Made by a program: the position numbers and the translations under genes
Part shown: piece after piece, positions 31,680-61,721 of the stretch
How positions within the stretch are numbered: the first letter of the stretch is position 1
Layout of the letters: every line of letters begins with the position of its first letter
Notes under the pieces: model-generated
What the model was told of the DNA's origin: nothing
What the model saw: the letters and a program-made list of their open reading frames with translations, nothing else
Database searches by the model: none
Origin: Leisingera daeponensis
Lineage (GTDB): Bacteria > Pseudomonadota > Alphaproteobacteria > Rhodobacterales > Rhodobacteraceae
Length of the DNA stretch: 64,000 bases
Assembly (NCBI RefSeq): GCF_019801465.1
Contig: NZ_JAHVJA010000007.1
Span: 124,001-188,000 of the forward strand
Reading direction: 5' to 3'

Positions 31680-32744
<1,065 letters not shown>

Positions 32745-32810
32745 CTTGCTTTGACTTTCTGGCAGGCGGCCTGTTTGCGCGCGGGGCAGGGGCGCGCTGG
32801 AATCTTAGGG

Positions 32811-32849: not shown

Positions 32850-32856
32850 TGATGCA

Positions 32857-32889
32857 GCCCGGCCAGATGATGGGGATCGCTGGCCGGGC
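32857..32889 (-). repeat. Stem-loop after glpV
   Basis: GCCCGGCCAG (32857-32866) and CTGGCCGGGC (32880-32889) form a perfect 10-bp inverted repeat with a 13-base loop, 12 bp past the glpV stop and 8 bp before the terminator stem. It probably protects the 3' end of glpV mRNA. Confidence 0.6.
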
Positions 32890-32901
32890 CGGGAGGAGGC
32901 C

Positions 32902-43162: not shown

Positions 43163-43397
43163 GTCCTTGTCGCACTCCCGTTGTCCGGATCCGCAGGCTA
43201 GGGGGGGAGGACAAGGGCGTCAATTGAGCCCGTGCCGGAGCCGCGCCCGGGCCGTGCAGCGGACCGGAATCTTGGAACAGTTCTGTTGCCTGTGCTGCAT
43301 TGCCCACGGCCGGGCAACAAGCGGCCAGAGGTGCTGGGCAAGGCGCGGCAGGGCGGCTAACCTGCCGCTGAAATCGTTTCTGCTGGAATTGTCCGCG

Positions 43398-44606
43398 TTG
43401 AAAATAGCTTACGTCCTCAATACTTACCCGCAGCCGTCGCACAGTTTCATCCGCCGTGAGCTGCAGGCGCTGGAACGGCAGGATTTCATCATCCACCGCT
43501 TTGCGATGCGGCCGTCCTGTGCTGCCTTGCCTGACCCAGGCGACCAGGCGGAGGCCGCGCGCACCGAATACGTGCTGCAGGCCGGTCCCGTGCGCCTGCT
43601 GGCCGCTCTCGCGCGGGAGGCCGCGGCGGCGCCGGTCCGGTTCGGGAGCGCGCTGCGGCTGGCACTTAAGCTGGCGGGGGACTCGGACAAAGGCAACCTG
43701 CGTCACCTGATCTATCTGGCAGAGGCGGCCCATGTGAAACAGCGCTGCTCGGCGGAAGGCGTGCAGCACATGCACGCCCATTTCGGCACCAATTCCGCCG
43801 CGGTGGCGATGCTGGCGCAGCAGCTTGGCGGCCCCGGCTACAGCTTCACCGTGCATGGGCCGGAAGAGTTCGATGCGCCGCATGCCTTGTCGCTGGGCGA
43901 GAAGATCAGCCGCGCGGCCTTCACGGTGGCGGTCAGCAGTTTCGGAAAAAGCCAGCTGAGCCGCTGGGCTGCTTTCGGAAAATGGGACAGTCTGAAGGTG
44001 GTGCATTGCAGCATCGAACCGGACCGTTTCGCTGAACCCGCACCGCTGCCGCCGGGGCCGCTGCGGCTGGCGGCAATTGGTCGGTTTGTCGAGCAGAAAG
44101 GCCAGATGGTGCTGCTTCGCGCGATGGCGCAACTGGTAGGGCGCATCCCGGACCTGCACCTTTCATTGATCGGCGACGGAGAAATGCGCCCGGATCTGGA
44201 AACGGCAATTGCAGAGCACGGGCTGCAACGGAATATCACGCTCACCGGGTGGCTGGCAGAGGATGGGGTGCGGCAGGAACTGGCCCGCGCGCACGCGCTG
44301 GTGATGCCCTCCTTTGCCGAGGGTCTGCCGATGGTGGTGATGGAGGCGATGGCAGCCGCCCGTCCGGTGATCGCGACGTACATTGCCGGAACGCCGGAAC
44401 TGGTGGTGCAGGGTCAAACCGGCTGGCTCGTGCCTGCGGGGGATGAAGCCGCGCTGGCAGAGGCCGTGCTGGCGCTGGCGCAAACATCACCGGAGCAGCT
44501 TGCCGCCATGGGGCGGGCCGGGCGCGACCGGGTGCTGGAGCGTCACGACAGTGCCAATGAGGCCGGGAAATTGGCTGCCCATTTCCGCAGTGCCATCGGG
44601 GGATAG
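43398..44606 (+). CDS. Glycosyltransferase family 4 (WcaL-like)
   Basis: The 402-residue GT-B enzyme shows the subgroup N-terminus KIAYVLNTYPQPSHSFIRREL, MHAHFGTNSAAVAMLA in the acceptor domain, IGRFVEQKGQMVLLRAM, and the conserved PSFAEGLPMVVMEAMAAARP. TTG at 43398 is chosen as start because the fold begins there; the longer frame from 43137 lies over the flippase start. Closely similar in layout to the GT4 at 20034. It stands between two leftward units and is the only rightward gene between 43.2 and 63.5 kb. Confidence 0.87.
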   Translation: MKIAYVLNTYPQPSHSFIRRELQALERQDFIIHRFAMRPSCAALPDPGDQAEAARTEYVLQAGPVRLLAALAREAAAAPVRFGSALRLALKLAGDSDKGNLRHLIYLAEAAHVKQRCSAEGVQHMHAHFGTNSAAVAMLAQQLGGPGYSFTVHGPEEFDAPHALSLGEKISRAAFTVAVSSFGKSQLSRWAAFGKWDSLKVVHCSIEPDRFAEPAPLPPGPLRLAAIGRFVEQKGQMVLLRAMAQLVGRIPDLHLSLIGDGEMRPDLETAIAEHGLQRNITLTGWLAEDGVRQELARAHALVMPSFAEGLPMVVMEAMAAARPVIATYIAGTPELVVQGQTGWLVPAGDEAALAEAVLALAQTSPEQLAAMGRAGRDRVLERHDSANEAGKLAAHFRSAIGG

Positions 44607-44732: not shown

Positions 44733-45569
44733 TTAACGGCCGCGGGTCCAGCGGGTACGCGAGGCAAACATCGGGGTTTTCACCGCCAGTGCCACCCCGG
44801 CGTAGGTCAGGAACCCCGCCGGATCGTTCAGCAGCAGGCGCAGCACGGTTCCCGTGCCCGGCTGCCCCTTGTCCTCGTTCCGCTCAAGCTCAGGATAGCG
44901 GGCAGTAATTTCGGCCACCCCGGCATTCTGCCGCCGCCTGACCCGGACTAGGTTCCGGAAGCCCTCCACCATCGGCCAGGTGTAGCCAGCCGGTACCTGA
45001 ACCCGCTCCTCCGGGGCGAAATTGAGGCGGGCAAAAATGTCGTCGGCGATGATGTCCGGCCAATGCCTCCAACGCTGCCGCCCGGCGCGTGTCATGGCAA
45101 AGACGCCAAACCCCGGCACCCCGCTGGTAAAGAACGGCAGCCGCGTCCACAACCGCGCATAGGCGCGGGTCAGTGCACTCCGGGCCGGGGCTACCTGAGG
45201 GCGGCCGCTGGCATAGAGAGGGGTATCTTCCGCAAGAGTTTCCGCGATTTGCGGGATCAGCGCGGGCGAAACCAGCACATCCGCATCCAGATAGATCAGG
45301 ATGTTCCCGCGCGCTGCTGCATCACCGGCATTGAGCGCTCCCAGCTTGCCGCCCTCCGGCAGTTCCATAACCTGCAGCTGCCAGCCATCCGGGCATGGGA
45401 CGGCCCGCGCCAGCGCCGCCGTTGCATCGGAACAGCCATTGGCCAGTACCAGCACTTCCCCTGCCAGGCCAGCAGGCAGCGGATCGGAAGCAAACACGGC
45501 CTGCAGGCAGGATTCGATGTACTCCGCCTCGTCATGAGCGGGGATCAGCACCGACACGCGCGGGTTCAT
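44733..45569 (-). CDS. Glycosyltransferase family 2
   Basis: The 278-residue GT-A enzyme has VSVLIPAHDEAEYIESCL (4-21), VLANGCSDATAAL and the DxD motif LDADVLV (about 95-101), with HWPDIIADDIFARLNF later. It starts at the ATG that overlaps the stop of the preceding 834-residue gene by 4 bp. It is the last gene of the seven-gene PKS/NRPS operon. The C-terminus has a hydrophobic stretch about 250-270 that may associate with the membrane. Donor and acceptor are unknown. Confidence 0.87.
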   Translation of the reverse strand: MNPRVSVLIPAHDEAEYIESCLQAVFASDPLPAGLAGEVLVLANGCSDATAALARAVPCPDGWQLQVMELPEGGKLGALNAGDAAARGNILIYLDADVLVSPALIPQIAETLAEDTPLYASGRPQVAPARSALTRAYARLWTRLPFFTSGVPGFGVFAMTRAGRQRWRHWPDIIADDIFARLNFAPEERVQVPAGYTWPMVEGFRNLVRVRRRQNAGVAEITARYPELERNEDKGQPGTGTVLRLLLNDPAGFLTYAGVALAVKTPMFASRTRWTRGR

Positions 45570-48070
45570 TTCACCATCTCCAGGGCGTCCCAGCGCGGGT
45601 TCTGATCGGTCAAGGTGCGCAAGGCGCCCCAGCTGCCCCATTTCCCGGGCGCTCCGACATCCGCATAAGCGGTGAACAGCCTTCCGCCTAGCGCCTGCCA
45701 GCCTGCCAGCAGCTCCTGATACAACGCCCCCATTTCGGGGGTATAGTTGAAATGGATGAAGAAGCCGGTCAGCGCTTCATCCTCCACCATCGGGCCGATG
45801 CCGACAACATGGCTGCCGCCTTCATACATAATCAGCTCCAGCCCGTGCTTCTGCGCGACCTTTGCGTGATAGGGCAGCACCCTTCCCAGAAGGTCGGTCA
45901 GCGTGTCAGCGGCATCGCCAGAGATCAGCCCGTCCCGCAGTTCCGCCCCGGCCTGGGCGCTGGCCGCATCGTACTGGTGCCGCGCCAGAAATTCTGATGC
46001 ATCGGGGCCAGACAGGCCGCGCTCTGCCGCCACCGCCTGCGCCTGCTCTCGGCTGGCGGCGATCCAGGCGCGCAGCTGACCGGCGCGATCTCTCAGCCCC
46101 AGCACACCGCCGAAATAGCCGGTTACAGCGTAGGCGTCGAAGTAGGCAGCAGGCGCCCGGCGCTCCGGCTTCTCGGCCTTCCAAAGCGGAGCCTCAAGCA
46201 CCTGCTCCTCCAACCCCAGCCAGCCGGTCTGCGAAGAAATGACCCGCACCAGCCGCTCGCTGCCATCGCCGAACACGTCGGTCCAGATTTGCGCGACTTC
46301 CGCCGCGCGGCCGCCGTAGAACTGCATCCATAGATTCTCGCTGCCCCAGCGGGCCTGTGCCTGCGCCTCGGCCCAGGCGGCCTGCCGGAACTGCCAATTC
46401 CAGACCTCGTTGGAATACTCGATATAAGCGCGCAGATCCTCATCCAGCCGGCTGTTTACCAGTTGCGCGAATTGCCGGACATAACTGTCATCCGCCATAT
46501 GCGGCATGCTGAACCAGGGATCGGCACCGAGCCTGTTGGCGAGCGCCAGCATCACCTCCGCAGGCACGCCCTTTTGCGCCCAAGTGTAATCGGAGGGCAG
46601 CGGCCGGTCCTCCCACCCGGTTTGTTCCGAGTCGTTGGTGGCCATCCAGTCCATGAACCGCAAGGCGGCGAAACCGTCCAGGCGCTCCAGCCAAAGCGGG
46701 TTGAACAAACCGCCGCCGTTAAAGGCCGCCAGATGCTCTTCCTTGACGACGGTTATATTGCGAACGTAGTTGCCGCCGCGGCCCATCCTCTGAATGCGGA
46801 TCTCCACCGGGCCGGGGCCGGGGGTGAAGTCAAACCGCACCTCGCCCTGGCCATAGCGGACATTTTCCGCCCGGCCCAGAACCTCGACAATGCCTTCCCC
46901 CTCGAACCGCAGCACGTAGCGGCCCGCCAGCGACACCGCCTCCTCTGGGAGGTCGGTGAGGATCACTGTGCCGATCGAGCTCAGCTCGGGCGGGATCGCA
47001 GTAGGCCAGCCTGCCGGGTCCAGGTAACCGGCTCCCAGCAAATCGTTGTGATCCGCGCCGCCCCAGCGCTTCGGCAGATGGCCGATCCAGGGCCGCGCGG
47101 TCTTGAAGTGATCCAGAAACGGCGCCTGGGTGCTCCAATCGGCAATGCCTGCCAGATTTATGGCGACAGGCTGGCGCATGGCCTTGCCCGGTAAGGCCGG
47201 AGCGTCGTCCAGCATCGCTGCATTCAGTACGGGCAGAGGCGGTTCCTGCGGTGGTGGCACGGGATCCTTGGGCAGCGCAGCCGTGCGCGCACTTTCCCCT
47301 TGTGCTGCAGCCCAGGCAATGTCCTGCAGGCGCGCGGCCAGTTCCGGCGAGGGCGCGGAATAGCGCTTGCCCCAGCGGTCCGTCAGCCGGTGCGGCAGGC
47401 CCTTCGGGACTTCTCCGGTCAGAACCGCAAACTGCAGCAGAGCCAGGAAGTAGAAGCCGGTGGAATTGGGGTGGATATCATCGGCAAAGACATCGCGGAT
47501 GCTGCTCAGCCCCGGCATTGTGCCGGCTTGAATAGCATCATCCAGCCGCGCCATCGCCTGGCCTGCAGGCAGCAGCTTGACATTGCCGCCTGTAGCAGCA
47601 CTGACTTCTGCCACGACTGCCTGCCAGCGCGGCAGATCCTGTTCCAGCCGCTGCCGCCAAGGCACATCCGCGCCGTCGTCAAAGGGCACCGCGGTGCCGG
47701 TGCCGCTGTCCAGACTGTGCCAGGTTTCCTGCAGGTAGAAGTCCACGTCAGGGTTTGAAGCCCGTGCGAGCTCATAAAACCGGGTGACGGCGCCTTCGGT
47801 ATCGCTCCACTTCAGGTGATTGGCCAGCGGGATCGCCTCGGTCACGATCACCGCATCGGCGTGCCGCGTCAGCCTTTCACGTGAATCAACGCCTTCCGCA
47901 CTGCCGCTGTGCTGCCAGTTATAGCTGAGCGGGGCGCCATTTATGATCTGCGCTTCGACTGTGGCCTCTGCCTGTGTGTCCAGAAGCTGATCCAGCATCT
48001 GCGGGTTGTCCTGGCCGAACAGCGAATGGCCGATCATCACGACAGAAGTGATCAGCGCCTCCACCTTCAT
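45566..48070 (-). CDS. Two-domain SGNH-like and glycosidase-like protein
   Basis: The 834-residue protein has residues 1-260 as an SGNH-type fold with GHSLFG (S16) and DIHPN (D198-x-H200). A Pro-rich linker (268-282) leads to a C-terminal region (about 300-834) resembling a clan-A glycoside hydrolase: FMDWMATNDSEQTGWEDRP, then YIEYSNEVWNW (candidate acid/base E555 in SNE) and LIMYEGGSHVVG (candidate nucleophile E750), 195 residues apart. No signal peptide is apparent, which is odd for a glycan enzyme. The SGNH part is paralogous to the next upstream gene product. Roles in ester removal and chain cutting, or in product release, are inference. Confidence 0.72.
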   Translation of the reverse strand: MKVEALITSVVMIGHSLFGQDNPQMLDQLLDTQAEATVEAQIINGAPLSYNWQHSGSAEGVDSRERLTRHADAVIVTEAIPLANHLKWSDTEGAVTRFYELARASNPDVDFYLQETWHSLDSGTGTAVPFDDGADVPWRQRLEQDLPRWQAVVAEVSAATGGNVKLLPAGQAMARLDDAIQAGTMPGLSSIRDVFADDIHPNSTGFYFLALLQFAVLTGEVPKGLPHRLTDRWGKRYSAPSPELAARLQDIAWAAAQGESARTAALPKDPVPPPQEPPLPVLNAAMLDDAPALPGKAMRQPVAINLAGIADWSTQAPFLDHFKTARPWIGHLPKRWGGADHNDLLGAGYLDPAGWPTAIPPELSSIGTVILTDLPEEAVSLAGRYVLRFEGEGIVEVLGRAENVRYGQGEVRFDFTPGPGPVEIRIQRMGRGGNYVRNITVVKEEHLAAFNGGGLFNPLWLERLDGFAALRFMDWMATNDSEQTGWEDRPLPSDYTWAQKGVPAEVMLALANRLGADPWFSMPHMADDSYVRQFAQLVNSRLDEDLRAYIEYSNEVWNWQFRQAAWAEAQAQARWGSENLWMQFYGGRAAEVAQIWTDVFGDGSERLVRVISSQTGWLGLEEQVLEAPLWKAEKPERRAPAAYFDAYAVTGYFGGVLGLRDRAGQLRAWIAASREQAQAVAAERGLSGPDASEFLARHQYDAASAQAGAELRDGLISGDAADTLTDLLGRVLPYHAKVAQKHGLELIMYEGGSHVVGIGPMVEDEALTGFFIHFNYTPEMGALYQELLAGWQALGGRLFTAYADVGAPGKWGSWGALRTLTDQNPRWDALEMVK

Positions 48071-49005
48071 GCCTGCGTCTCCCCTCCGCTGATGCCGGTT
48101 CGGGGACAGCTGCGCACGGCGTCCCAGACGATTTTCTGCACATTTGCGGCTGTTTCCGCACTGAACGATTGCGCTGGGGTGCCATCCGCACGGTGCAACT
48201 GATGCGGCAAGCCCACGGGAGCGCGCTGGTACAGAACCGCGTAATGGGTCAGGGCAACAATATAGGCACCCAGATCATTGAAATGGATCGTGTCCAACTC
48301 GCCGGCAGGCGCGCGCGCAAACAGCGATTCACGTGAAGCCAGTCCAGGAATATCTCCGGCTTCAGCCGCCCGGGCAACCGCTGCCATCACCTGCCCCCCG
48401 GGGATCAGGTAAACCGGGTGCCGGGGATTGCGGCGGCTGTCCGGTCCAAGCAGTTTGCCGATCCATAGCGCCTCCAGATCGCCATCTATCCGCGCCAGCC
48501 AGCCGCCGGGGTCATCCAGGCGGTGCCAGGTTTCATAAAGGTACAGGCGCGGCGGCGGTGCAGCCTCCCGGGCCAGATTCGCCCATTTCCCCAGATACTT
48601 GGACGCGTCGAAATACCTGACCGCGTCGCGCAGCTCGACCATTTCAGTCAGCACCACCGCACCGTATTCCCCCGAACCGATGGCCTCTTTTGCATCCCGG
48701 AAGGCCGGTGCGCGGTTGGTCGTTTCAAAATCGAGGATATCCTCCCCCGGCTCCCAATGCGCCCTCAGCGGTGTGCCGGACCCCAGCTGGCTGTTGTAGC
48801 CATGCCCTTCCGGCGCCAATTGCGCCAGCATGTGCGGCATGTCCGGCCCGACCAGCGAATGGCCCAGGTGGAAAACCTTCAGCGGCCCGCCCGGTGGGCT
48901 CAGCGGCGGCGGCACAGGAACAGACCGGCCGCGGGTCGCAAACACTATCAGACCCAGCGTTCCGGCGGCAGCGCTTAGGGCCAGAAAACCGCGCCGTCCC
49001 ATCAT
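48067..49005 (-). CDS. SGNH-like exported protein (possible Tat substrate)
   Basis: The 312-residue protein has an N-terminal twin-arginine-like signal (GRRGFLALSAAAG) and an SGNH-like core: FHLGHSLVG (S50), LYLYETWHRLDD, and DTIHFNDLGAYI (D-x-x-H near the C-terminus). It shares the same succession of motifs with the first 260 residues of the downstream gene: GHS, ETWH-L-D and GLPH-L. Usual members hydrolyse or transfer esters, but the typical GDSL block is GHS here and the block III Asn is unclear. It overlaps the PPTase gene by 4 bp. Confidence 0.72.
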   Translation of the reverse strand: MMGRRGFLALSAAAGTLGLIVFATRGRSVPVPPPLSPPGGPLKVFHLGHSLVGPDMPHMLAQLAPEGHGYNSQLGSGTPLRAHWEPGEDILDFETTNRAPAFRDAKEAIGSGEYGAVVLTEMVELRDAVRYFDASKYLGKWANLAREAAPPPRLYLYETWHRLDDPGGWLARIDGDLEALWIGKLLGPDSRRNPRHPVYLIPGGQVMAAVARAAEAGDIPGLASRESLFARAPAGELDTIHFNDLGAYIVALTHYAVLYQRAPVGLPHQLHRADGTPAQSFSAETAANVQKIVWDAVRSCPRTGISGGETQA

Positions 49006-49691
49006 CCGCGCCCCCGGATTTCCGCCGTGGTCATGATCAGCCCCGCGCCAACGGCAAAGCGCCCGCCAACCGCTTCGCCACGCAAAAACGGCGGCCGGTC
49101 CGCGGTGAAAAACGCCTGATAGGCACTCGCTGCCAGATCTAGTTCCAGCTCCATCCCGTCAAAGCCGTAGAACGCACGGCTCAGCGTGTACTGGGCTTTG
49201 TAGGCGGCCTCCTTGGCAGAAAAGATCACCTTGGCCATTTGCCCCGGATTGTCCTGTCGGCGCAGCCAGGCCTGCTCGCGTTCAGAGCAGATCGCGGGCA
49301 GCAGTTCGGCCTTCAGCGGGGTGTCTTCCTCCACGTCGACCCCCAAGGCCTGCACCTCCCCCTCCCGGGCGAGCACTGCCATGGCACAGCTTTTGGTGTG
49401 AGTGATCGAGCCGACGAGCCCCGCAGGCCAGACCGGCGCCCGATCGCTGCCGACCTGCACCGGGGCAGGCGAAACACCAAGCTGCCGCATCGCCTGATGC
49501 ACGGCGTCGCGGCCCGCGGCAAACTCGTTGCGCCGCTTTTTCACCGCATTGGGCGACAGCCCTGCCGCTTCCTCCGCCAGCGGTTCTGCGGGCGTGCCCA
49601 GCGGGTCCGCACCTGCAAGCGCGACATTGGCGGCAAAAAGCGGCCGGACCAGGGCCAGCCGCTCGGTCAATCTGCTGTGTCTGTCTGTCAT
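49002..49691 (-). CDS. 4'-Phosphopantetheinyl transferase (Sfp/EntD type)
   Basis: The 229-residue protein carries GSITHTKSCAMAVLA, the Mg-binding GVDVEED (117-123) and FSAKEAAYKAQY (157-168), the EntD-like subgroup signatures. It transfers phosphopantetheine from CoA to carrier-protein serines, here S1441 of the NRPS and S1806 of the PKS. It sits immediately after the NRPS gene with a 4-bp ATGA overlap, so it is almost certainly dedicated to the two megasynthases. Confidence 0.93.
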   Translation of the reverse strand: MTDRHSRLTERLALVRPLFAANVALAGADPLGTPAEPLAEEAAGLSPNAVKKRRNEFAAGRDAVHQAMRQLGVSPAPVQVGSDRAPVWPAGLVGSITHTKSCAMAVLAREGEVQALGVDVEEDTPLKAELLPAICSEREQAWLRRQDNPGQMAKVIFSAKEAAYKAQYTLSRAFYGFDGMELELDLAASAYQAFFTADRPPFLRGEAVGGRFAVGAGLIMTTAEIRGRG

Positions 49692-52600
49692 CCGGTCCGA
49701 GCCCTGCGGTTTGCCCGCATTGCCCGCCGTTTCGACATCATATCGTTCCGGTCAGGGGCTGCGGTTGCCTCGGGCTGTTGTTCCGCATTCGCCGGGGTGC
49801 CTGCAAGCCCCTCTATATGGGCCGCCAGTCCGGAAAGAGTCGGGAAGCGGAAGATATCGGTGATCGACAGGGCGGTTGTGCCGAGTTCCTCACGTAGTTC
49901 CCGGTGTGCCTGCACTGCCAGCAGTGAATGCCCGCCAAGGGCAAAGAAATTGTCCTGTGCGCCTATGCCGCTTACGCCCAGAATACGGCTCCAGACCGTC
50001 GCGATTCTGGACTGCGCGCCTGCGTCAGGCGGTACAGCCGGTGCAGCATTAGCCTGCGCGGGCTGCGGATCGGGCAGCGCCTTGCGGTCGATTTTCTTGT
50101 TCGGCGTCAGCGGGAAAGCTTCCAGCGTGATGATACGCGACGGCACCATCACCTCTGCGAGACGGGCTGCCAGCGCCTGTTTCAGCGCGTCCTCCTGCAC
50201 CGGCCCAGAGGCGGTGATGTATCCAAACAGCTGCTCGCTGCCGGCCGCGCCGCGCGGCACCACAACCGCGCCGGTAACACCCGGCTGCGCCGCAAGTGCG
50301 GCCTCGATTTCGCCCAGTTCAATCCGCTGGCCGCGGATCTTCACCTGATGGTCGGTGCGGCCCAGGAACATCAGCGTGCCACCCGCCGTCCAGCGTACCA
50401 GATCACCGGTGCGGTAAAGACGACCCGCAGCGAACGGAGCGTTGACGAACCGTTCAGAGGTCAGTTCCTCCCGCTGCCAATACCCCTCGGTGACACCCGC
50501 GCCGCCGATGTACAGCTCGCCCGGTGTCCCGGCTGGAACAGGTATTTGTCTTTCGTCCAGCACGTAAACCTGCGTATTGGCAATCGGCGTCCCGATCCCC
50601 GATGTCCCCGCGGCGGCGGAGACTTTCTCCACCGTCGACCAGATCGTCGTCTCGGTCGGGCCGTACATGTTGTGGATTTCTGCCTGCGTCGCTTCCAGCA
50701 AAGCCTGCACCAGATTGCCGGGCAGCGCCTCGCCGCCCACCAGCAGATGCTGAAGATGGCCCAGACAAGTGCTCGCGTCCGCATCGGCGGCAATCATCCG
50801 CGCCATTGACGGGGTGCACTGCATGTGGCTGACTCCGTGGCGCACGATTTGAGCTGCCAGCGAGAAATCATCCTCCGCCATCTCTTGCGGCGCGTTCGAA
50901 AGCCGCAGCACGTCTGCCAAGGGTCTCAACCCTTCCAGCACCACGTCCGGCGCGATGCCGTAGTCGATCAGGCAGGCGATTTCATCCACCCCGATCCGTT
51001 TCAGCTGCTCCACCCGCTGGCAGGCATCCTGGATGGTGCCGAACAGCCCCGAGTCCTCGAAATAACGCTCGAAGGCAAAATCGAGGATCGCTTCGAGTTC
51101 CTCCTCCGAGAGCATCCCCAGGTCCATCTCGAACGGGTTCTTCACCCCTTCGGGTTTCTTGAACGCGGGGAAGGCCCAAGCGTATTGCTTGATCAGCCCG
51201 GCAGCGGAGCGCAGGTAGTCCTTCATCGGCTCGCGTGCCACCCGCCGGGCTTCCTCGCGGGTGTGTGCAAGATAGCTGTGCAGCATTAGGGTGACCTTGA
51301 AGTCCGCAGGGTCATGCCCGGCCTCGCGCAGGGCCGCGTGATAGATGCGGATCTTGCTCGCAATCTCGTCAATGCTCTGGCCCAGCAGGTGGGTCAGCAC
51401 GTTTGCCCCAATCGCCCCGGCCTCGCGCCAGGTCTCCGGGTTGCCTGCGGTAGTGACCCAGACCGGCAGTTCCTTGGAGACCGGCCGCGGCTGGGTGATG
51501 ACACTGTGTTCGCCGCCCTCCTTTCTGGGAAAGGCAACCTCCTCGCCGCGCCAGAGCTTGCGAACTGTTTCAATGCTTTCGAAGAGGGCAGGCTTGTTCG
51601 CTGGGGGCGTGTTCTCGGGCCGCAGAATAAAATCATCCGGTTGCCAGCCCGAAGCAAAGCCGATGCCTGCACGGCCCGCAGTCAAATTGTCGATCACGGC
51701 CCATTCCTCTGCAATCCGGGCCGGATGATGCAGCGGCGCGACGCATGATCCGCCGCGCACGCCGAGGTTCTGCGTCACCGCAGCGACGGCGGCGCCGGTG
51801 ACCGACGGGTTCGGGTAAGGCCCGCCAAAGGCATGGAAATGCCGTTCCGGCGTCCAGACGGCGTTGAACCCGTGCTGGTCCGCAAACTTGGCGCCCTCCA
51901 GCAGCAGATGGTATTTCTGCGGCCCCGGCCCGTCGTCATTACCCCAGTAGAACAAGTTGAAGTCCATCTTCCGGCCGCTGAGGGCAACCGGCCCCTTGGA
52001 CAGCTCCAGCCGGCTCTCGTCGCTCGTCAGCACCAGCTTGAAGCCGCGTGTGAGGGTCCAGAACAGTTCCAGCACCGAAATGTCGAAGCTGAGGCTGGTC
52101 ACTGCCAGCCAGGCATCTCCCGCTTGATGCGGGATGCGCTGATCCATTCCGGCAAAGAAGTTCGAGACGTTGGCATGGGTGACCATTACCCCCTTGGGCA
52201 GGCCAGTGGAGCCGGAGGTGTAGATCAGATAGGCCAGATCGCTGCCGGTCGCGCCCCCCGCGAAATTCTCCCTCGTCCCCGCGGGGACTGTTTCGATGTC
52301 CAGCACTTGCGCGTCCGAAGCAGGCAGGCTGCCCGCCAGCGCCCCCTGCGTCACGATCACCTGGACCTGGCTGTCTGCGATATAATGCGCAATACGGTCG
52401 GCAGGGTAGGCGGGGTCCAATGGCACATAGGCGGCCCCGGCTTTCATCACCCCAAGCGCTGCGAACACCAGCTCCGGCCCGCGGCGGATGTGGATGCCCG
52501 CATGGCTCCCCGGTTTTACACCCAGTTCACGCAGGCGCCCGGCCACCGCATTGGCGCGGCCGTTGACTTCGGCGTAGGTGAAGCTCTGGTCTTCGAACAC

Positions 52601-54247: not shown

Positions 54248-55269
54248 TTCTGCTCCTTTGCAAGCGGAGAAGGGAGGCGCGTTTCATTTGGTGATGCGCG
54301 GCCCGGCGCAAGGAGCGCGCGCAGACTGTGACGACAAAGGTCACGCAGGAAATACGGCGGATCTGCCTGCGGCTTATTCTGGATCAGGCGGCGCAGGCCA
54401 TAAAGAAGGCTGCCACACATGCGGGCCAGAGTGGCAGCAGCGGCGTAGGCGCGGCCGTGGGTCATGATGAAATAATGCAGGCGCGAGTCGAACCAGTACG
54501 CGGGAGTGCGTTGCCATCCCTTCATGCCGGTGGAGGCGGAGCCGATATGTTCCACTTCGCTGGCGGGCACGTAATGGGTGCGCCAGCCCGCCCGGGCGGC
54601 GCGGCGGCACAGGTCGGTTTCCTCAAAATAGAGAAAGAAGGTTTCGTCAAACCCGCCCACGGCCTCGACCGCCTCGCGGCGGATCATCAGGCTGGCACCG
54701 GCGGTCCAGTCGACCTGCACCTCTGCCTGCGGCATTTCCATGGCGACCACCCAGGGTTTCAGCAGGCGGGTGAAAAGGCCGGTGCGGACGCTGGCCTCGA
54801 ACTCCCCCGCGATGGAAGGGAAGCGGAAGGCGGTACGATGCGGCGCGCCATCGGTGCCGCGCACAAACGACCCGGCCAGCCCGGCACCCGGACGCTCCAG
54901 CAGAAAATCCCTCAGCGTACGGATGGTGCTGCCCTGAACAAAGGCGTCGGAGTTCAAGAGAAAGTAGAACGCCGGTGTGCTGCCGTCCGCGAGGCCGGTT
55001 TTGAAACCGATGTTCATGCCCGCACCAAAGCCGCCGTTCACGGGTGATGCGATTACCCGGACCTTGTTGCCATCGAGCCAGCCGCGGGCCTCGGCCGCCC
55101 TGCGTATCTGCGTGTAAGAGCTGTCACCGGAACCATTGTCGATGATCAGCAGCTCTCCCGGCAGGTCGTCCAGCTCGCGCAGCGCGGCTTCGGCGGATTG
55201 CAGGGTCATCTCCGGGGTGCGGTAATTCAACAGGATGATGAGGACGCGCTGCTGGGCCATATCGGTCAC
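54244..55269 (-). CDS. Glycosyltransferase family 2 (rhamnosyltransferase-like)
   Basis: The 341-residue GT-A enzyme contains VLIILLNYRTPEMTLQSAEAA, IIDNGSGDSSY, the DxD-like FLLNSDAFV (about 106-114), the acceptor-binding GGFDETFFLYFEETDLCRRAARAGW stretch (read in parts) and VEHIGSAST, all typical of WbbL/RfbN-type rhamnosyltransferases. It starts at a GTG overlapping the PKS stop (GTGA) and ends overlapping the NRPS start (ATGA), so it lies between the two megasynthases in one coupled operon. This placement suggests that it glycosylates their product or a shared lipid-linked acceptor. Confidence 0.9.
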   Translation of the reverse strand: MTDMAQQRVLIILLNYRTPEMTLQSAEAALRELDDLPGELLIIDNGSGDSSYTQIRRAAEARGWLDGNKVRVIASPVNGGFGAGMNIGFKTGLADGSTPAFYFLLNSDAFVQGSTIRTLRDFLLERPGAGLAGSFVRGTDGAPHRTAFRFPSIAGEFEASVRTGLFTRLLKPWVVAMEMPQAEVQVDWTAGASLMIRREAVEAVGGFDETFFLYFEETDLCRRAARAGWRTHYVPASEVEHIGSASTGMKGWQRTPAYWFDSRLHYFIMTHGRAYAAAATLARMCGSLLYGLRRLIQNKPQADPPYFLRDLCRHSLRALLAPGRASPNETRLPSPLAKEQK

Positions 55270-58200
55270 TCCGCCGCTTGGATGGTTCGCATAGGGGCGG
55301 AGACCGCCGCGCGGTCGGCGGCGTCCAGCCGCGCCTTGACGCCTGCCGCCAGCACGCTGACGTTCGGGACCAGCACCATGCTGTCGTGATCGCCTGGCAC
55401 CTCGGCGACCTCAACGGCGGGCGCCCAGCGGGTCCAGTCGTTGTCGGGGCATACATACTCGCGTTCGCTGCTGACCCAATTGCCGCCGCTGACTTGCCAT
55501 TTGCGGTCCAGCGGCGGGCGGAACAGGGTAAGCGGACCATGCCAGGGTCTCAGGCCGTAGGATTCGACGGCGGTGCGGAAGGCCAGTTCGATCTTGCGGT
55601 TGTTGAATTTCGGCAAGGCGCCGGTTTCCGGCGGTTTAATGCGGCGTTTCTCGAACTCCCAAGCGATGCGGTTCCGGATCCATTCGCCGAGGTAGCCCAA
55701 TCCCTTACTGCGCAGTTCTGCCAATTTGATCAGCGCCTTGTCCTGACGGCTCAGTGCCGGGCGCACCGGCAGCGGCGTGTCCAGCAGGATCAGCGCTGCG
55801 GTGTCCTGGCCCTGCGCCTTCAGCTGCTGTGCCATCTCATATGCGGTGATGCCGCCGCCGGAGAAGCCGCCGAGCAGATAGGGGCCCTCAGGCTGGATCT
55901 GGCGGATCTCGCTCAGGCAGCTGCGGGCGGCGTCTTCAATCCGGTCGTGCGGGGCATCGCTGCCCACAAGCCCCTTGGCCTGCATGCCGTAGACCGGGCG
56001 GTCCTTGCCGACCAGCAGCGCCAGATGCCGCAGGTTCAGCACGTTGCCGAACATGCCCGCAACCAGGAAAAATGGCCGCCGCCCAGTGCCGTCGCCGGGG
56101 TGCAGCTGCACCAGATGGGTGAATTGCGGTTTCTCTTCTGCGGCCTGCGGTGCGTCCACAGATTCTGCGGCGATGCCGCCGCCGGTGCGTTCGATGATCC
56201 GCGCCGCCAGCGCGGCGACGCTGGGGGCTTCGAACAGCACAGACAGCGGGAATTCCACGTCAAAGGCGCGTTTCACCTGGGCAAACAGCCGGACTGCAAT
56301 CAGCGAGTGGCCGCCGAGGTCAAAGAAGCTGTCCGCGATGCCGACCTGGCTAACCCCCAAAAGGGAGGCAAACAGCTTTGCCAGCTGCTCCTCCACCGGG
56401 TTGCGCGGGGCGATGTAATCGGTGTCGAGTTGCGGGCGGTCGAACGTCTGGGTCTCTGTTTCGGCAGCTGTGCTCCGGTTCGCCTGGGAGATCAGCGCGG
56501 GCAGGTCGAGCGAGGAGACCACCACCTGCGGCAAACCGGTGGCCAGCGCACGGGTCAGAACCTCGCCGCCCTCCTTGGCCTTGATTCCGCTCGCGATGTT
56601 CAGTTGCAGGCGGCGTTCCTCGGGTGACAGAGGCTGCGGGCTGTTGACCGGCTCCAGCCCCAGCTGGGCGGCGGTAGCATCCGCCTCGCGCGGTTCCCCG
56701 GCGGCGATAAAGCCGTCAGCCGGGCGCTGGATCCGGAAGCCCTCGATTTCCACCAGCACGGTGCCGTCGGGGTCCGTCAGGGTCACTTCGAACGCCGCGG
56801 TGGCTTTGTCGGGGCTGCCGGACAGGCGAACATGGCTGAAGATGGTCTGAGTCAGCGGCGCGAATACCCGGACCGTGCCATAAGACACCGGCACCCAAAG
56901 CGCAGTTGCGTCATACCCGGGGATCAGCTTTATTGCCCAGCCCGTGGCAAGATCCAGCAGGCCAGGGTGCAGGAGGCAGCCGTCCGCAGCGGCGGCTGCT
57001 GGCAGCGACAGGGTTGCAATGCCTTCATCATCCCCCAGCGCGGCGCGGTCCAGCACATGCCAGCGCGGGCCGAAATTCAGATGCGCCTCCTGAGGGGAGC
57101 GCAGGCGCCCGCGTTCAGGCGCCTGCTCCTCCGGGCAACGGGTGAAAATCATTTGGAGGTTGAGGGGGGCGGGACGTTCTGCCTCCGCAGCTAAGGCCAG
57201 CACAGCCTGACAATTCAGAAGGTAACCTTTTGTAAACTCCGAGTAAACAAACAGTTCATAACCATTTTCATTAGCTTCTAACTTTACAAGCGCCTCGCGC
57301 GGGCTGTCCAGCTCTGCAATCATAGGGCGCAAGAAGTAAAGGTCGCGAATCTCAAACGGGCCTTTGACGCCAATCGCCGCCAGCGCCTCGGCGGCCATCT
57401 CGACATAGCCGGTGCCGGGCACCAGGGCAGTTCCATCCGCGGTCCGGTGTTCGTCCAGCAGCCAGTGTTCGGTGCTGAAGCGGGGCGAGAAGATCCGGTT
57501 GCCCGCGGTATCAAAAGCCTGCTGTTGCAGCAACGGCTGCGGGCACGGTTCGGGTTCACTGGCGCCCGTGCTTCCGTTGCGGCCAGCCATGGCATCGGCG
57601 GCCATACCGGTGTCCGCCCAGACGCCCCAATCCACGGCGACGACCCGCGTCTTCCCGCCCGTGCGGTGCTTCGCCCAGGCGTTGAGGTATTCGTTCGCGG
57701 CAATGTAATCCACCTGGCCGGCGGGCCGGGTCGCTGTGGAGGTCGACGAAAACAGCACCATCAGTTCCAGGCTGCCGTCCGGGAATACCGTGTCCAGTGC
57801 CCTCAGGCCGCTGACCTTTGGGGCAAGCACTTGGGCGATCTGATCCTCGTCCTTGGCCAGCAGCGGTCCGTCGCTGATGGCACCAGCCCCGTGGAGCACC
57901 CCGGTAACCGGGCCAAAGGCGGCTTCGGCCAGTTCGCGCGCCGTGCGCAGATCGCCGCTATTGCAGACGTCAGCAGCGAGCGGCATCACCTGGCCCATGC
58001 CGCCTGCCTCCAGCGCCATGACAGCACGGATGCGCTTCGCGGTGCGGTTGGCGGGGCTATGGCTGCTGAGAAAGCGGTCCCAGGTGCCGCGCGGCGGCAG
58101 ACCGCCGCGGGAAATCAGAGATACCCTGGCGCCGTATTCACGCATCAAGTGGCTGGCGATGGTTAGACCAATACCGCCGTAACCGCCGGTGATCAGATAG

Positions 58201-61200
58201 TGGCCGCCTTGTTTGAAGGGCGGCGTCTTCGGCTCGGGCAGCGTTTGCGGGCGCCAGCTGAGTTCAAACCGTTTTTCCCCGCGCCAGGCGGCGGAGGCGT
58301 TGACGGGATTTGCCAGCAGTTCTTCGAGCAGGCGCGGAGTGATCTTCGCTTGATCCGGATTGCGCCGGGCAAAAAGGCCCTGCGGCGCCTGAGGCAGTTC
58401 AATGTCCACGGCGGCGCAGGTGAAACCGGGCAGCTCGCGCGGAATCACGCCCAGCGGGCCTGCGATCATTGCCTTCTCCGGATAGGGCAGGGCCTCGTTC
58501 CGGACCTGCGCAGCGCCGGTGGTAAAGACAGTCAGATGCGCCGGGCTGGTCAGATCGGCATTGCCTAGCTCTTGTGCCAGCGCGGTCAGGGAGTGGAAGC
58601 CCGTCTCCAGATTGCGGTCAAAGAAGGAGGAGCCGGGGCGGAAGCGTTCGCCATCCGTCACCAGCCAGAAATGCGCGATCCGGTCCGGCAGCAGGCCGGC
58701 GTCCGTCAGGTCTGCCAGCAGCGCGCCATAGGCGGCGCGGCCCTGTTCCGGCGGCAGAATATAAGAGTGCGGGGAAAGCTGCGCATAGGTGTCCCCGGCG
58801 CGGACGCGGGCAACGCTGTGGCCTGCGGCCTGCAGACATTCCGCGACACGGGCGGCATGGCCGCATTCGTCCTCAAAGATCAGCCAGCTGTGCGGTTCCT
58901 GATCAAGTTCATGTTCCACATCCATAGCGCAATCAGCCAGCCGCGGGCGCCAGACGGGACGGTAGCCCCAATCTTTGATATCGTCCCGGCGGGCGGGGGG
59001 GGCAGCCGCGTCCTCCAGCACCGGTTTGCCGGGTTCTATGAAGTAGCGGCTTCGCTGGAAGGCGTAACCGGGCAAAGGAAGGCGGTTGCGCCTCGCCTCG
59101 CCCCAGATCTGTTCCCAGTCGGCCTCCACCCCGCAGGCCCAAAGCCGGCCGATAACGCCAAAGAAATAGCTGTCGTCCATCACCTCCTGATCCGGATGGC
59201 GCAGCGAGCTGAGAACCTGACCCTGTTTCACCGCAGGCGACATCTGCGCCAGAGCGCTCAGCGCCTTGCCGGGGCCGACTTCCAGGAACAACCGGCCCGG
59301 GGTCCTGGCGAGGGTTTCGATGCAATCGGCATAGCGCACGGTATTGCGCAGCTGGCCGGTCCAGTAATCGGCGCTGGCGGCCTGCTCTGCGGTCAGGGCC
59401 GCGCCGGTGCGGTTGGAGATCACCGGAAGCTTGGGCGCTTTCAGCTCCAAAGAACGGATGAAATCGCCATACTCCCGCAGGATGCCGTCCAGCATCCGTG
59501 AGTGGGCCGCAATGTCGATCTGGATGCGCTGGTGCTCGATCCCGCGCAGGATCAGGTCTGCCGACAGCCTTTCCAGCGCCTCCTGCGGGCCGGACACTGC
59601 AGTGAGCGCGGGAGCGTTGACGCTGGCGATATCCAGATTACCACCGATGAGGGCTTCAACCTCATCAAGCGGCAGCGCGATAGACAGCATGCCTCCCGCG
59701 GGGACGGTATCGAACAGCCGCCCGCGCAGCAGCACCAGGTCGATGCAGTCCTCAAAGCGCATCACACCGGCCAGGCAGGCGGCGGTGTTCTCGCCCATCG
59801 AATGGCCCACCAGCGCGGCGGGCCGCACGCCCCAGCTGATCCAAAGCTGCGCCAGCGCGTATTCGACGATCATGATCAGCGGCAGCTGCACCGAGGGCTT
59901 CTGGAGCTTGGCATTGGCGGTGTCCTCTTCGCCCTCGTCCGGCAGCCAGATAGCGCGGATGTCGTAGTCGAGGCTCTTTTGCAGATGCTCCAGCCCGCGG
60001 TCCATCCACTCGGCAAAGACCGGCTCGGTCTCGTAGAGGTCGCGCGCCATGCCGGCATATTGCGCACCGCCGCCGGGGAACATGAACACCACCTCTGGGG
60101 CGTCGCCGAGACGGTCGTGAGTGAAGACTTTGCGGGGATCGCTTTCCTCAATCAGGTCAACTGCTTCGGCAGCGGTTTCCGCCACCAGCACCCGCCGCTT
60201 GGCAAAGCCGCGGCGGCCTTCCTTGAGGGTATAGGCCACGTCGGCGAGATCGGCCTGGGGATTTGCTTTCAAGTACTCCGCCAGCGCTCGGGTGTTGGCG
60301 TCCAGCGCCGACTTGGACTGGCCTGAAACGCAAAGGATCTGGAACGGGAAGTCGCTTTCTTCCGAGGCCGCGCGCTCCGGCGCTTCCTCTAGGATCAGAT
60401 GCGCATTGGTGCCGCCGACACCCAACGAGTTGACGCCGGCCCGCCGCGGTCCCTTGTGAGGCTGCCAGGGCGTGAGGGCAGCGTTCACGCGGAACGGCGA
60501 GGTCTCGAAATCAATCGCCGGGTTCGGCGCCTCAAACCCCAGCGAGGGCGGGATTTCCTTGTGGTGCAGCGCCAGCGCGGCCTTGGTGAGGCTAGCAACG
60601 CCTGCTGCGGTATCCAGATGGCCGATGTTGGTCTTGACTGAGCCGATAAGGCAATAGCCGGTATCCTGCGTAGTGGCCCGGTAGGCGTCGGTCAGCGCCG
60701 AAACTTCGATCGGGTCGCCCAGGTAGGTGCCGGTGCCGTGGCATTCGACGTAGTCGATGGTTTCCGCCGGGGTGCCTGCCGCGTGCAGTGCCTGTTGCAC
60801 CGCCGCTGACTGGCCGCCGACCGACGGCGCCAAGTAGCCGGCCTTGTCGGCGCCGTCGTTGTTGATGGCCGAGCCCTTAATCACCGCCCAGATGTGGTCG
60901 CCATCGGCAATCGCATCCTCCAGCCGCCTGAGCGCCACAGCGCCGGCGCCGGAGCCGAAAACGGTGCCTTGCGCCCGGTGGTCGAAGGCGTGGCAGCGGC
61001 CGTCAGGCGACAGGATCTCGTTTTCCTTGTAGAGGTAGCCGCGCCCTTGCGGCAGCTCGATGGTGACACCGCCCGCCAGCGCCATATCGCATTCGCCTTC
61101 GCGCAAGGCCTTGCAGGCATAGTGCACTGCCACCAGCGAGGTGGAACAGGCAGTCTGCACGTTGACGGACGGTCCCTTCAGGTCGAGCACATGGCTGACC

Positions 61201-61721
61201 CGGGTCGACAGGAAATCCTTGTCGTTGCCGGTATGGCGCAGCAGGAACATCCCGACGTCATCGACCAGGGCAGGGTTGGAGCAGATGTTGAAATAGAAAT
61301 AGCTGCCCATGCCGCAGCCTGCATAAACGCCGATGGGGCCGTTGATGCTTTCCGGAGGGTGGCCCGCGTTTTCCATCGCGTTCCAGGCAACCTCCAGGAA
61401 TTTGCGGTGCTGCGGGTCAAGGATGGCAGCTTCCTTGGGGCTGAAGCCGAAGAATTCGGCATCAAACTCGTCAAACCCCTGCAGACGGGCTGCGGCCGGG
61501 ACATAGTTCGGGTCAGCTAGGAGCGACGCGCGTTCACCATTTTCCAGCAGGGTTTCACGGTCCAGGACCTCAATCGACTCTATCCCTGCGCGGAGGTTCT
61601 GCCAGAACGCCTCGGCAGAGCCGGCGCCCGGCACAGTGACCGACATCCCGACAATGGCAATATCGCCTGAATAATTACCGGCACCGCCTCGCGCTGCGGT
61701 TATCCCATCCTGCATCGTCAA
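55266..61721 (-). CDS. Type I PKS module: KS-AT-KR-DH-ACP-TE
   Basis: The 2151-residue single-module PKS has KS (about 20-450) with active-site C192 in TACSTS, H328 in ECHGTG and H368 in NIGHLD. AT (about 545-870) has GHSMG (S641) and H740 in IAAHS. A KR structural half (about 920-1120) precedes the NADPH-binding TGGYGGIG (1178-1185) and Y1339/N1343. DH follows the KR, with H1425 and D1590 (HPGLLD). ACP S1806 lies in DLGGHSL, and TE has GFSGGG (S1954) with H2112. The order KR before DH is unusual. TTG 61721 and ATG 61715 are both possible starts. A 10-bp inverted repeat lies in the leader. It probably makes a beta-hydroxy or enoyl acyl chain, with TE release or transfer. Confidence 0.93.
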   Translation of the reverse strand: MTMQDGITAARGGAGNYSGDIAIVGMSVTVPGAGSAEAFWQNLRAGIESIEVLDRETLLENGERASLLADPNYVPAAARLQGFDEFDAEFFGFSPKEAAILDPQHRKFLEVAWNAMENAGHPPESINGPIGVYAGCGMGSYFYFNICSNPALVDDVGMFLLRHTGNDKDFLSTRVSHVLDLKGPSVNVQTACSTSLVAVHYACKALREGECDMALAGGVTIELPQGRGYLYKENEILSPDGRCHAFDHRAQGTVFGSGAGAVALRRLEDAIADGDHIWAVIKGSAINNDGADKAGYLAPSVGGQSAAVQQALHAAGTPAETIDYVECHGTGTYLGDPIEVSALTDAYRATTQDTGYCLIGSVKTNIGHLDTAAGVASLTKAALALHHKEIPPSLGFEAPNPAIDFETSPFRVNAALTPWQPHKGPRRAGVNSLGVGGTNAHLILEEAPERAASEESDFPFQILCVSGQSKSALDANTRALAEYLKANPQADLADVAYTLKEGRRGFAKRRVLVAETAAEAVDLIEESDPRKVFTHDRLGDAPEVVFMFPGGGAQYAGMARDLYETEPVFAEWMDRGLEHLQKSLDYDIRAIWLPDEGEEDTANAKLQKPSVQLPLIMIVEYALAQLWISWGVRPAALVGHSMGENTAACLAGVMRFEDCIDLVLLRGRLFDTVPAGGMLSIALPLDEVEALIGGNLDIASVNAPALTAVSGPQEALERLSADLILRGIEHQRIQIDIAAHSRMLDGILREYGDFIRSLELKAPKLPVISNRTGAALTAEQAASADYWTGQLRNTVRYADCIETLARTPGRLFLEVGPGKALSALAQMSPAVKQGQVLSSLRHPDQEVMDDSYFFGVIGRLWACGVEADWEQIWGEARRNRLPLPGYAFQRSRYFIEPGKPVLEDAAAPPARRDDIKDWGYRPVWRPRLADCAMDVEHELDQEPHSWLIFEDECGHAARVAECLQAAGHSVARVRAGDTYAQLSPHSYILPPEQGRAAYGALLADLTDAGLLPDRIAHFWLVTDGERFRPGSSFFDRNLETGFHSLTALAQELGNADLTSPAHLTVFTTGAAQVRNEALPYPEKAMIAGPLGVIPRELPGFTCAAVDIELPQAPQGLFARRNPDQAKITPRLLEELLANPVNASAAWRGEKRFELSWRPQTLPEPKTPPFKQGGHYLITGGYGGIGLTIASHLMREYGARVSLISRGGLPPRGTWDRFLSSHSPANRTAKRIRAVMALEAGGMGQVMPLAADVCNSGDLRTARELAEAAFGPVTGVLHGAGAISDGPLLAKDEDQIAQVLAPKVSGLRALDTVFPDGSLELMVLFSSTSTATRPAGQVDYIAANEYLNAWAKHRTGGKTRVVAVDWGVWADTGMAADAMAGRNGSTGASEPEPCPQPLLQQQAFDTAGNRIFSPRFSTEHWLLDEHRTADGTALVPGTGYVEMAAEALAAIGVKGPFEIRDLYFLRPMIAELDSPREALVKLEANENGYELFVYSEFTKGYLLNCQAVLALAAEAERPAPLNLQMIFTRCPEEQAPERGRLRSPQEAHLNFGPRWHVLDRAALGDDEGIATLSLPAAAAADGCLLHPGLLDLATGWAIKLIPGYDATALWVPVSYGTVRVFAPLTQTIFSHVRLSGSPDKATAAFEVTLTDPDGTVLVEIEGFRIQRPADGFIAAGEPREADATAAQLGLEPVNSPQPLSPEERRLQLNIASGIKAKEGGEVLTRALATGLPQVVVSSLDLPALISQANRSTAAETETQTFDRPQLDTDYIAPRNPVEEQLAKLFASLLGVSQVGIADSFFDLGGHSLIAVRLFAQVKRAFDVEFPLSVLFEAPSVAALAARIIERTGGGIAAESVDAPQAAEEKPQFTHLVQLHPGDGTGRRPFFLVAGMFGNVLNLRHLALLVGKDRPVYGMQAKGLVGSDAPHDRIEDAARSCLSEIRQIQPEGPYLLGGFSGGGITAYEMAQQLKAQGQDTAALILLDTPLPVRPALSRQDKALIKLAELRSKGLGYLGEWIRNRIAWEFEKRRIKPPETGALPKFNNRKIELAFRTAVESYGLRPWHGPLTLFRPPLDRKWQVSGGNWVSSEREYVCPDNDWTRWAPAVEVAEVPGDHDSMVLVPNVSVLAAGVKARLDAADRAAVSAPMRTIQAAE

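Follow-up and report, generated by a model that had tools for sequence, protein, structure and literature searches.

A one-module NRPS and PKS encoded within a Wzx/Wzy-type exopolysaccharide locus of Leisingera daeponensis

Organization of the locus

We analyzed a 64,000-nucleotide stretch of DNA (hereafter the window) from the 4.89-Mb genome of Leisingera daeponensis (NCBI RefSeq assembly GCF_019801465.1, contig NZ_JAHVJA010000007.1, positions 124,001 to 188,000; our contig C7), in which seven minus-strand open reading frames (ORFs; 44733-61721) encode, in order, a polyketide synthase (PKS), a family 2 glycosyltransferase (GT2a), a non-ribosomal peptide synthetase (NRPS), a 4'-phosphopantetheinyl transferase (PPTase), an SGNH-hydrolase-like protein, an SGNH domain fused to a glycosidase (SGNH-glycosidase; GH in the counts below) and a second family 2 glycosyltransferase (GT2b). 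These seven genes are the center of a Wzx/Wzy-type exopolysaccharide (EPS) locus spanning approximately 38.4-65.3 kb (Table 1), and the link of the NRPS and PKS to glycan genes is well supported by comparative genomics.

All six junctions between the seven genes are overlaps of exactly four bases (GTGA at PKS/GT2a, ATGA at the other five), with TGA as the stop codon of each of the six upstream genes. The PKS ORF opens with TTG at 61721, two codons ahead of an ATG at 61715 that is the likely start, and the GT2b ORF opens at 45641, the ATG that overlaps the SGNH-glycosidase gene being at 45569. The initial annotation of this DNA had placed these ORFs and overlaps exactly; its PKS, NRPS, PPTase and two GT2 labels agree with Pfam/NCBIfam domains, and its two SGNH labels are backed by predicted structure, not by Pfam/NCBIfam. 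It had also argued from the unbroken overlaps to a glycan-linked product. Across 109 distinct NRPS-bearing loci, where the measurable count differs per junction, the four-base overlap was found at 28/62 PKS/GT2a, 59/70 GT2a/NRPS, 62/86 NRPS/PPTase, 22/65 PPTase/SGNH, 58/65 SGNH/GH and 25/27 GH/GT2b junctions, and all six together at 7 of 22 fully measurable loci, namely the window and its near relatives. Such overlaps are common at certain junctions and rarer at the rest, so that the operon bond, although real, looks ordinary; the overlaps do not carry the argument, and we rejected them as evidence for a glycan link.

In its initiating transferase, flippase, Wzy/WaaL-type protein, chain-length and kinase homologues, glycosyltransferases and glycosidase, the locus resembles Wzx/Wzy-dependent EPS loci; unlike standard loci of that kind, it has a dedicated NRPS, PKS and PPTase. 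The kinase homologue in locus L197 is annotated CpsD/CapB, the flippase reaches 88.5 bits against the MOP flippase model (below cut-off), and the true start of the GT4 gene is probably inside its ORF. The Wzy-like protein itself has no Pfam match and its relative in L136 matches Wzy_C above cut-off; its structural model aligns with WaaL (7tpg) at Z 18.2 over 332 residues, with the next row at 9.5, and the predicted fold would fit a polymerase or a ligase alike. The start and family name of the WecG-type glycosyltransferase were assigned by eye, Pfam WecG being matched in a Sphingobium relative and the L197 homologue being annotated WecB/TagA/CpsF. Beyond the window lies a further glycosyltransferase gene, X64, the L197 homologue of which is annotated as such.

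Table 1. Features of the exopolysaccharide locus, with window coordinates
Feature	Coordinates	Strand	Basis
Initiating sugar phosphotransferase (Bac_transf, WbaP-like)	38443..39294	+	Bac_transf 7e-56
CpsD-like tyrosine autokinase	39370..40296	+	TIGR03018 1.1e-18, below its cut-off
Chain-length determinant (Wzz-like)	40411..41661	+	TIGR03007 4.6e-22, below its cut-off; Pfam Wzz 0.0085
Wzx-type flippase	41792..43162	-	Polysacc_synt_3 5.3e-41, over cut-off
GT4 glycosyltransferase, EpsE-like	43137..44606	+	Pfam; EpsE model 2e-69 from residue 90, below cut-off
GT2b, family 2 glycosyltransferase	44733..45569 (ORF from 45641)	-	Pfam
SGNH domain fused to clan GH-A-like glycosidase	45566..48070	-	AlphaFold model, structure matches
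SGNH-hydrolase-like protein, apparent Tat-type N-terminus (by eye)	48067..49005	-	Likeness to SGNH-glycosidase
PPTase	49002..49691	-	Pfam 4PPT_N + ACPS
Single-module NRPS: formyltransferase - half C - A (Gly-type, split by monooxygenase) - T	49688..54247	-	Pfam/NCBIfam, alignments
MupA/Atu3671-type luciferase-like monooxygenase in A domain	50984..51931	-	TIGR04020, Bac_luciferase
Half condensation domain, C-terminal lobe, without HHxxxDG	52628..53380	-	Profile alignment
GT2a, family 2 glycosyltransferase, between PKS and NRPS	54244..55269	-	Pfam
Type I PKS, KS-AT-KR-DH-ACP-TE	55266..61721	-	Pfam domains
PKS KS domain	61664-60534	-	Pfam
PKS AT domain	60089-59256	-	Pfam
PKS KR domain	58205-57612	-	Pfam
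PKS DH domain, placed after KR	57536-56724	-	Pfam
PKS ACP domain	56390-56196	-	Pfam
PKS TE domain	from 55997	-	Pfam
Wzy/WaaL-type polymerase or ligase	61975..63438	-	Predicted structure, relative's Pfam match
WecG/TagA/CpsF-type glycosyltransferase	63631..64000, extends past window to 64383	+	ORF and homologues

Domain architecture of the NRPS and PKS

The monooxygenase within the A domain of the NRPS matches TIGR04020 with 469.7 bits against a cut-off of 244.45 (NRPS residues 763-1113) and Pfam Bac_luciferase over residues 773-1088, the A-domain matches being split around it; with the motifs placed by eye, the insertion falls between A4 and A5. The specificity code reads D I L Q L G M I W K, which we take to be of the glycine type, with the position numbering likewise assumed. 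Eight code positions (D I L Q x G M x W K) are invariant in all 100 aligned homologues, among them the lysine at position 517 (NRPS residue 1385); the alignment comprises 100 of 113 ORFs, those left out being identical or outside 1350-1700 aa. Ahead of the A domain stands the C-terminal half of a condensation domain alone rather than an active one: a profile of 28 homologues aligns to McyB 201-482 (E 3.4e-23), and the HHxxxD motif is absent from this part in 100 of the 100 homologues. The formyltransferase (FT) domain is closest to Met-tRNA formyltransferase (1.4e-23), followed by ArnA and GDP-4-amino-4,6-dideoxymannose formyltransferase (6.6e-19 and 1.1e-18, respectively), with a weak match to the FT of gramicidin LgrA (2.7e-6). 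Its N, H and D residues are kept in 98/100 homologues, as is the fusion of these residues to the half-C and A domains (98/100). Some relatives, e.g., those in L170, L175 and L179, keep the A-monooxygenase-T part only, and in a class-wide search the monooxygenase segment was found at E<=1e-90 in 7 of 385 genomes, five of them from the same family.

Modules with a monooxygenase between A4 and A5 are known from the myxothiazol and melithiazol lines, where we take the proteins concerned to be MtaG and MelG. Glycine modules of these lines carry the enzyme at the same A4/A5 site, and passages on them describe hydroxylation that leads to carbinolamide cleavage (PMC10204066); MupA is described as catalyzing alpha-hydroxylation of a carrier-bound beta-keto thioester (PMC10952193). 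The window NRPS shares with the myxothiazol/melithiazol lines, as portrayed in those passages, both the insertion site and a glycine-type A domain (PMC10204066), whereas it differs from their modules in having an FT and a half C before the A domain and no TE, with a separate PKS following.

The active-site residues of the PKS KS, AT, KR (Tyr), DH and ACP domains are kept in 79-81 of 81 homologues and the TE serine in 75 of 81 (81 of 94 ORFs were aligned, the remainder being identical or outside 1900-2600 aa). No ER domain was found among the Pfam matches of the PKS. Given the glycine-type NRPS module and the lack of an ER match in the PKS, the lipid-modified product envisaged by the initial annotation is unlikely. 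In L162 (Pseudophaeobacter leonis; 0.3-6.9 kb), the PKS match falls into five pieces, and the gene may be damaged or misassembled.

SGNH protein and SGNH-glycosidase

Neither the SGNH protein nor the SGNH-glycosidase has a Pfam/NCBIfam match at E 0.001, and a PDB sequence search returned only chance-level matches for the glycosidase (E 0.43 upward) and none for the SGNH protein. The SGNH protein is 31% identical (1e-29) to the N-terminal domain of the SGNH-glycosidase, and in the AlphaFold model of the latter (mean pLDDT 83.8) residues 5-265 match the DUF4886 protein 4i8i with Z 21.6 (VIA). The remainder of the predicted structure, from residues ~267-299 to 834, matches GH51 and bacterial heparanase structures (Z ~20 over 278-307 residues), families that we take to be members of clan GH-A, so that the model has a clan GH-A fold. 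Candidate catalytic residues N554, E555 and E750 are invariant in a 31-sequence alignment. Signal-like N-termini are visible by eye in some relatives lacking the SGNH domain (L070, L072) and in type-B relatives (L094, L103).

Co-occurrence and gene order within the family

We sampled the family with 394 genomes, close to one for each genus, counting a GH match at E<=1e-10 over any part of its 834 residues and a strong NRPS match at >=476 bits on the NRPS segment (with the exception of G114, where it is in two pieces). The GH protein was matched in 148 genomes, the NRPS segment strongly in 138 and the Wzy-like protein in 156. NRPS and GH occurred together in 134 genomes, with 14 having GH only, four NRPS only and 242 neither (Fisher p 8e-83, kinship ignored); NRPS and Wzy likewise occurred together in 134, with four having NRPS only, 22 Wzy only and 234 neither (p 1.6e-75, kinship ignored). 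The initial annotation had held that PKS/NRPS genes without the SGNH and glycosidase genes would speak against a glycan tie; such genomes are rare in the family (4/138: G158, G216, G322 and G359), and these assemblies comprise 230-510 contigs each, two of them being 71%-77% complete.

Wzy or GH is located within 30 kb of the NRPS in at least 110 of the 136 genomes with a placed NRPS, distances being computed for one NRPS copy per genome. G126 and G132 each carry the NRPS twice, with strong matches on separate contigs; in G132 one copy is in a window-type and the other in a type-B arrangement. In five genomes GH is more than 50 kb from the NRPS on the same contig; four of these (G034, G121, G175 and G303) have Wzy at ~11 kb, and G243 has it at 84 kb.

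The initial annotation had proposed conservation of the whole gene order as a check. Among 40 loci around the best GH matches, 22 keep all seven genes and five are short of one, either GT2b, the place of which is near the end of the retrieved sequence (L048, L064, L068 and L069), or the PPTase (L057). Of the rest, 12 loci have GH and GT2b only, eight of these with a separate SGNH gene and all with the NRPS elsewhere in the genome, and one has GH and the PPTase only. Viewed from 138 NRPS places in 136 genomes, the two main arrangements have GH just downstream (35) or 13-26 kb upstream on the same strand (55), GH is otherwise arranged in eight, and 40 are without GH on that contig among the places listed, some of those 40 genomes having a GH match whose place is outside the listing. 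The type-B loci examined contain the same parts (Wzx, Wzz, kinase, GT4, X64 and WecG) in other orders, and wherever PKS and NRPS adjoin in mapped family loci, GT2a holds the same position. Among the named relatives found, those closest to the window by NRPS identity are L147 (Leisingera sp. ANG1; 87%) and L107 (L. aquaemixtae; 85%-86%). A window-type locus with 75% NRPS identity, L115 (JAHVJD010000005.1), is titled Nocardioides marinus strain DP1N28-1; this organism name is probably wrong, the matching G238:C5 being placed in the window's own genus.

Relatives outside the family

Related NRPS genes accompany glycan genes beyond the family as well. Loci of Devosia (L151 and L169) and Aliihoeflea (L165) have the NRPS and the PPTase along with many of the window's glycan genes, differently ordered. 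A 44-kb segment of a Shinella zoogloeoides plasmid contains, again in a different order, homologues of Wzx, PKS, NRPS, PPTase, WecG, the initiating transferase, GT4, X64, GT2a and the kinase, together with an export protein and an O-antigen ligase, the GT2b, Wzz and GH homologues being weak or partial. An Aminobacter plasmid encodes PKS, NRPS, PPTase, glycosyltransferases, an O-antigen ligase, an export protein, a flippase and a GH9 protein, also in another order, and an unannotated Neorhizobium plasmid, searched by tblastn, has PKS, NRPS, PPTase and several of the same glycan genes. In Sphingobium and Rhizorhapis, NRPS, PKS and GT2a adjoin other glycosyltransferases, and in a metagenome-assembled genome (MAG) labeled Planctomicrobium the NRPS and PKS are beside a UDP-GlcNAc 2-epimerase, a nucleotide-sugar epimerase and a glycosyltransferase. 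In five distant loci (L161, L164, L167, L172 and L174) the NRPS gene is directly upstream of the PKS gene, which is consistent with the NRPS acting first and the TE last.

The window contains a second polysaccharide block at 8250-26742, comprising genes for an export protein, a Wzz-like protein, a deacetylase, an O-antigen-ligase-type protein, glycosyltransferases, a sulfotransferase and three proteins with an Acetyltransf_6 domain. Its deacetylase (17328-18614) occurs in just 5/394 family genomes, too rare to serve as a control, which suggests that this block is strain-specific, unlike that of the NRPS and PKS.

A previously described roseobacter cluster

A conserved roseobacter cluster of NRPS, PKS, glycosyltransferase and PPTase genes has been reported in 28 of 57 genomes, in a passage stating that its product "has not yet been characterized" (PMC4337385), and the same four-gene cluster appears in a passage of PMC5014874, both papers crediting Martens et al. 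The PKS, GT2a, NRPS and PPTase of the window correspond to that cluster as defined there (PMC4337385). Leisingera strains JC1, ANG-Vp, ANG-M1, ANG-M7 and ANG1 are named in passages of these papers (PMC4337385, PMC5014874), and the loci of the named strains, L108 (JC1), L110, L113, L114 and L147, carry orthologues of PKS, GT2a, NRPS and PPTase with 81%-87% NRPS identity to the window, the PKS of L108 being partly cut by a contig end. The four-gene core of the operon described by the initial annotation had already been published (PMC4337385, PMC5014874). Those descriptions, in the passages concerned, present four genes with no polysaccharide link, whereas in the window the four belong to a Wzx/Wzy-type locus that also encodes an SGNH protein, an SGNH-glycosidase and GT2 enzymes. 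No link of the cluster to EPS was seen among the titles returned by searches of open-access PMC or in passages of PMC4337385, PMC5014874, PMC4062626, PMC8273931, PMC3910692, PMC3908369, PMC10204066 and PMC10952193, and the main text of PMC4337385 has no word starting with "polysaccharide"; a passage in PMC4062626 reports a PKS and NRPS genes and, separately, polysaccharide genes.

A proposed role in exopolysaccharide assembly

Assembly lines such as this small, glycine-using one usually serve in antibiotic synthesis. The linkage of the NRPS and PKS genes to sugar-coat genes persists in relatives with changed gene order, and this co-travel despite reshuffling suggests that their product is part of the sugar coat. 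The tie drawn by the initial annotation is in this respect upheld, by co-occurrence with GH and with Wzy that survives changed gene order, and not by the overlaps or in its lipid part. We think it probable, with some reserve, that the assembly line delivers a short glycine-primed acyl unit into or onto the EPS repeat unit, while ester groups would be the target of the SGNH proteins and chains would be trimmed by the glycosidase. From the domains we infer the chemistry, namely formylation, hydroxylation, extension by malonate and transfer to sugar. The PPTase would arm both carrier domains and the A domain would load glycine, which the FT and/or the monooxygenase would convert to an N-formyl and/or alpha-hydroxy glycyl thioester, or to a glyoxylyl thioester after carbinolamide collapse. 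The PKS would take this glycyl-derived starter, add malonyl once or a few times, reduce and dehydrate, and the TE would release or transfer the resulting short acyl unit, unsaturated or hydroxylated. This acyl unit and sugars would then be incorporated by GT2a and the other glycosyltransferases into a lipid-linked repeat unit begun by the WbaP-like transferase, which Wzx would flip and Wzy would polymerize; the SGNH proteins would be responsible for adding or removing acyl/ester groups, with chains being trimmed or cut by the GH-A-like glycosidase. Tentatively, the locus may represent a class of EPS with an NRPS/PKS-made component, composed of formylated and/or oxidized glycine plus malonate and joined to sugars before flipping and polymerization. 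With the same hesitation, genes of such a class could be present in about one-third of sampled family genera (138/394 genomes) and in some Rhizobiales.

Several observations weigh against a role of the assembly line in EPS synthesis. No Wza-type outer-membrane export gene was recognized at 38.4-65.3 kb; the Poly_export gene at 8250-9479 is part of the other block, and an export family protein is annotated in the Shinella and Aminobacter loci. By eye, the window SGNH-glycosidase has no obvious signal peptide. The co-occurrence counts are not phylogenetically independent, and they omit six intermediate NRPS matches of 185-414 bits (G144, at 414, G244, G022, G318, G263 and G147), among which GH is matched in G147 alone and Wzy in G147 and G318 alone; with these added, GH accompanies 135 and Wzy 136 of 144 NRPS genomes, leaving 9/144 without the glycosidase. 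The 100% complete genome G217 has the NRPS without a Wzy match. In 26 of the 136 genomes with a placed NRPS, neither Wzy nor GH is within 30 kb among the places listed: 22 have none on that contig among those places, and G072, G153, G243 and G345 have them at 53-418 kb. Outside the family, PKS/NRPS genes without the SGNH/glycosidase pair, which the initial annotation had regarded as contrary evidence, do occur: the SGNH-glycosidase was not found in the 8-kb flanks of the Sphingobium and Rhizorhapis NRPS loci, and MAG loci L155, L161, L173 and L181 have neither other glycosyltransferases nor the SGNH-glycosidase in their flanks. Some loci beyond Rhodobacterales and Hyphomicrobiales are thus devoid of visible glycan genes: in the flanks examined, no PKS match was found in L155, L173 and L181, and L161 has NRPS and PKS without recognized EPS genes. 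On a plasmid of Aliiroseovarius sp. M344 (L195), a 42% identical NRPS is by a 9.2-kb NRPS/PKS gene, an esterase and nos genes, with two GT2 genes ~16-19 kb off and no flippase or polymerase within 44 kb; this is possibly a different use of the same NRPS module. There, at 19989-33728, the diverged NRPS and the 9.2-kb gene are flanked by the nos genes on one side and by an exosortase gene on the other. In some loci the order of the genes departs from the proposed line from NRPS to PKS, the PKS preceding the NRPS in family loci and in L168 and the two being divergent in Shinella and Aminobacter.

Alternatively, the cluster might make a free diffusible metabolite (a signal, antibiotic or metallophore), glycosylated by GT2a and merely housed in an EPS region. 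Passages in PMC4337385 and PMC5014874 list the cluster among secondary-metabolite clusters, the PKS has a terminal TE, NRPS relatives outside the family are found in loci without visible EPS genes, and possible exporters exist in a TolC-family gene beside the Aminobacter PKS and a type I secretion pair a few kb off in Shinella. We nevertheless consider a free metabolite unlikely, since a mere passenger would not be expected to co-occur with the SGNH-glycosidase and with Wzy in 134/138 genomes, nor to turn up again beside flippase and polymerase genes where the order differs and on Rhizobiales plasmids. The annotations of L192, L193, L194 and L197 include no TonB receptor (the window was not searched), which also speaks against this explanation, and a siderophore is not favored.

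The PKS might also make a capsule lipid anchor or carrier, as proposed for RkpA/WcbR, with the NRPS supplying a polar head group. The locus does resemble, by description, the wcbR/rkpA capsule clusters in that a type I PKS gene is within a polysaccharide locus, and the passage describing those clusters mentions no NRPS partner (PMC3908369), whereas the window locus also has flippase and Wzy-like genes. These genes, and a glycine-type module and a PKS with KR and DH but no ER found, which suit a short unsaturated unit better than a fatty chain, make a lipid anchor quite improbable. Slightly less probable again is a scheme in which the FT formylates a sugar amine, A-T supplies a glycine substituent (amide or ester) of the repeat unit and the PKS a separate acyl group: the ranking of FT relatives, with sugar-amine enzymes ahead of LgrA, fits it, and the near-constant fusion of the FT to half-C and A and the NRPS-PKS order in distant relatives, which suggests one line, do not.

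Unlike the overlaps, the joint inheritance of a one-module NRPS, a one-module PKS and a Wzx/Wzy-type locus looks out of the ordinary. If the proposed incorporation into EPS is correct, assembly-line enzymes would supply a Wzx/Wzy-dependent glycan route, and a cluster often listed as "orphan antibiotic-like" would be a pathway for a cell-surface polymer. Should the cluster decorate or build a surface polysaccharide, searches for free compounds would miss its product, and purified EPS would be the place to look. The PKS/glycosyltransferase/NRPS/PPTase cluster is widespread in roseobacters (PMC4337385), and in that case the finding would also be relevant to how common marine bacteria attach to surfaces and associate with hosts.

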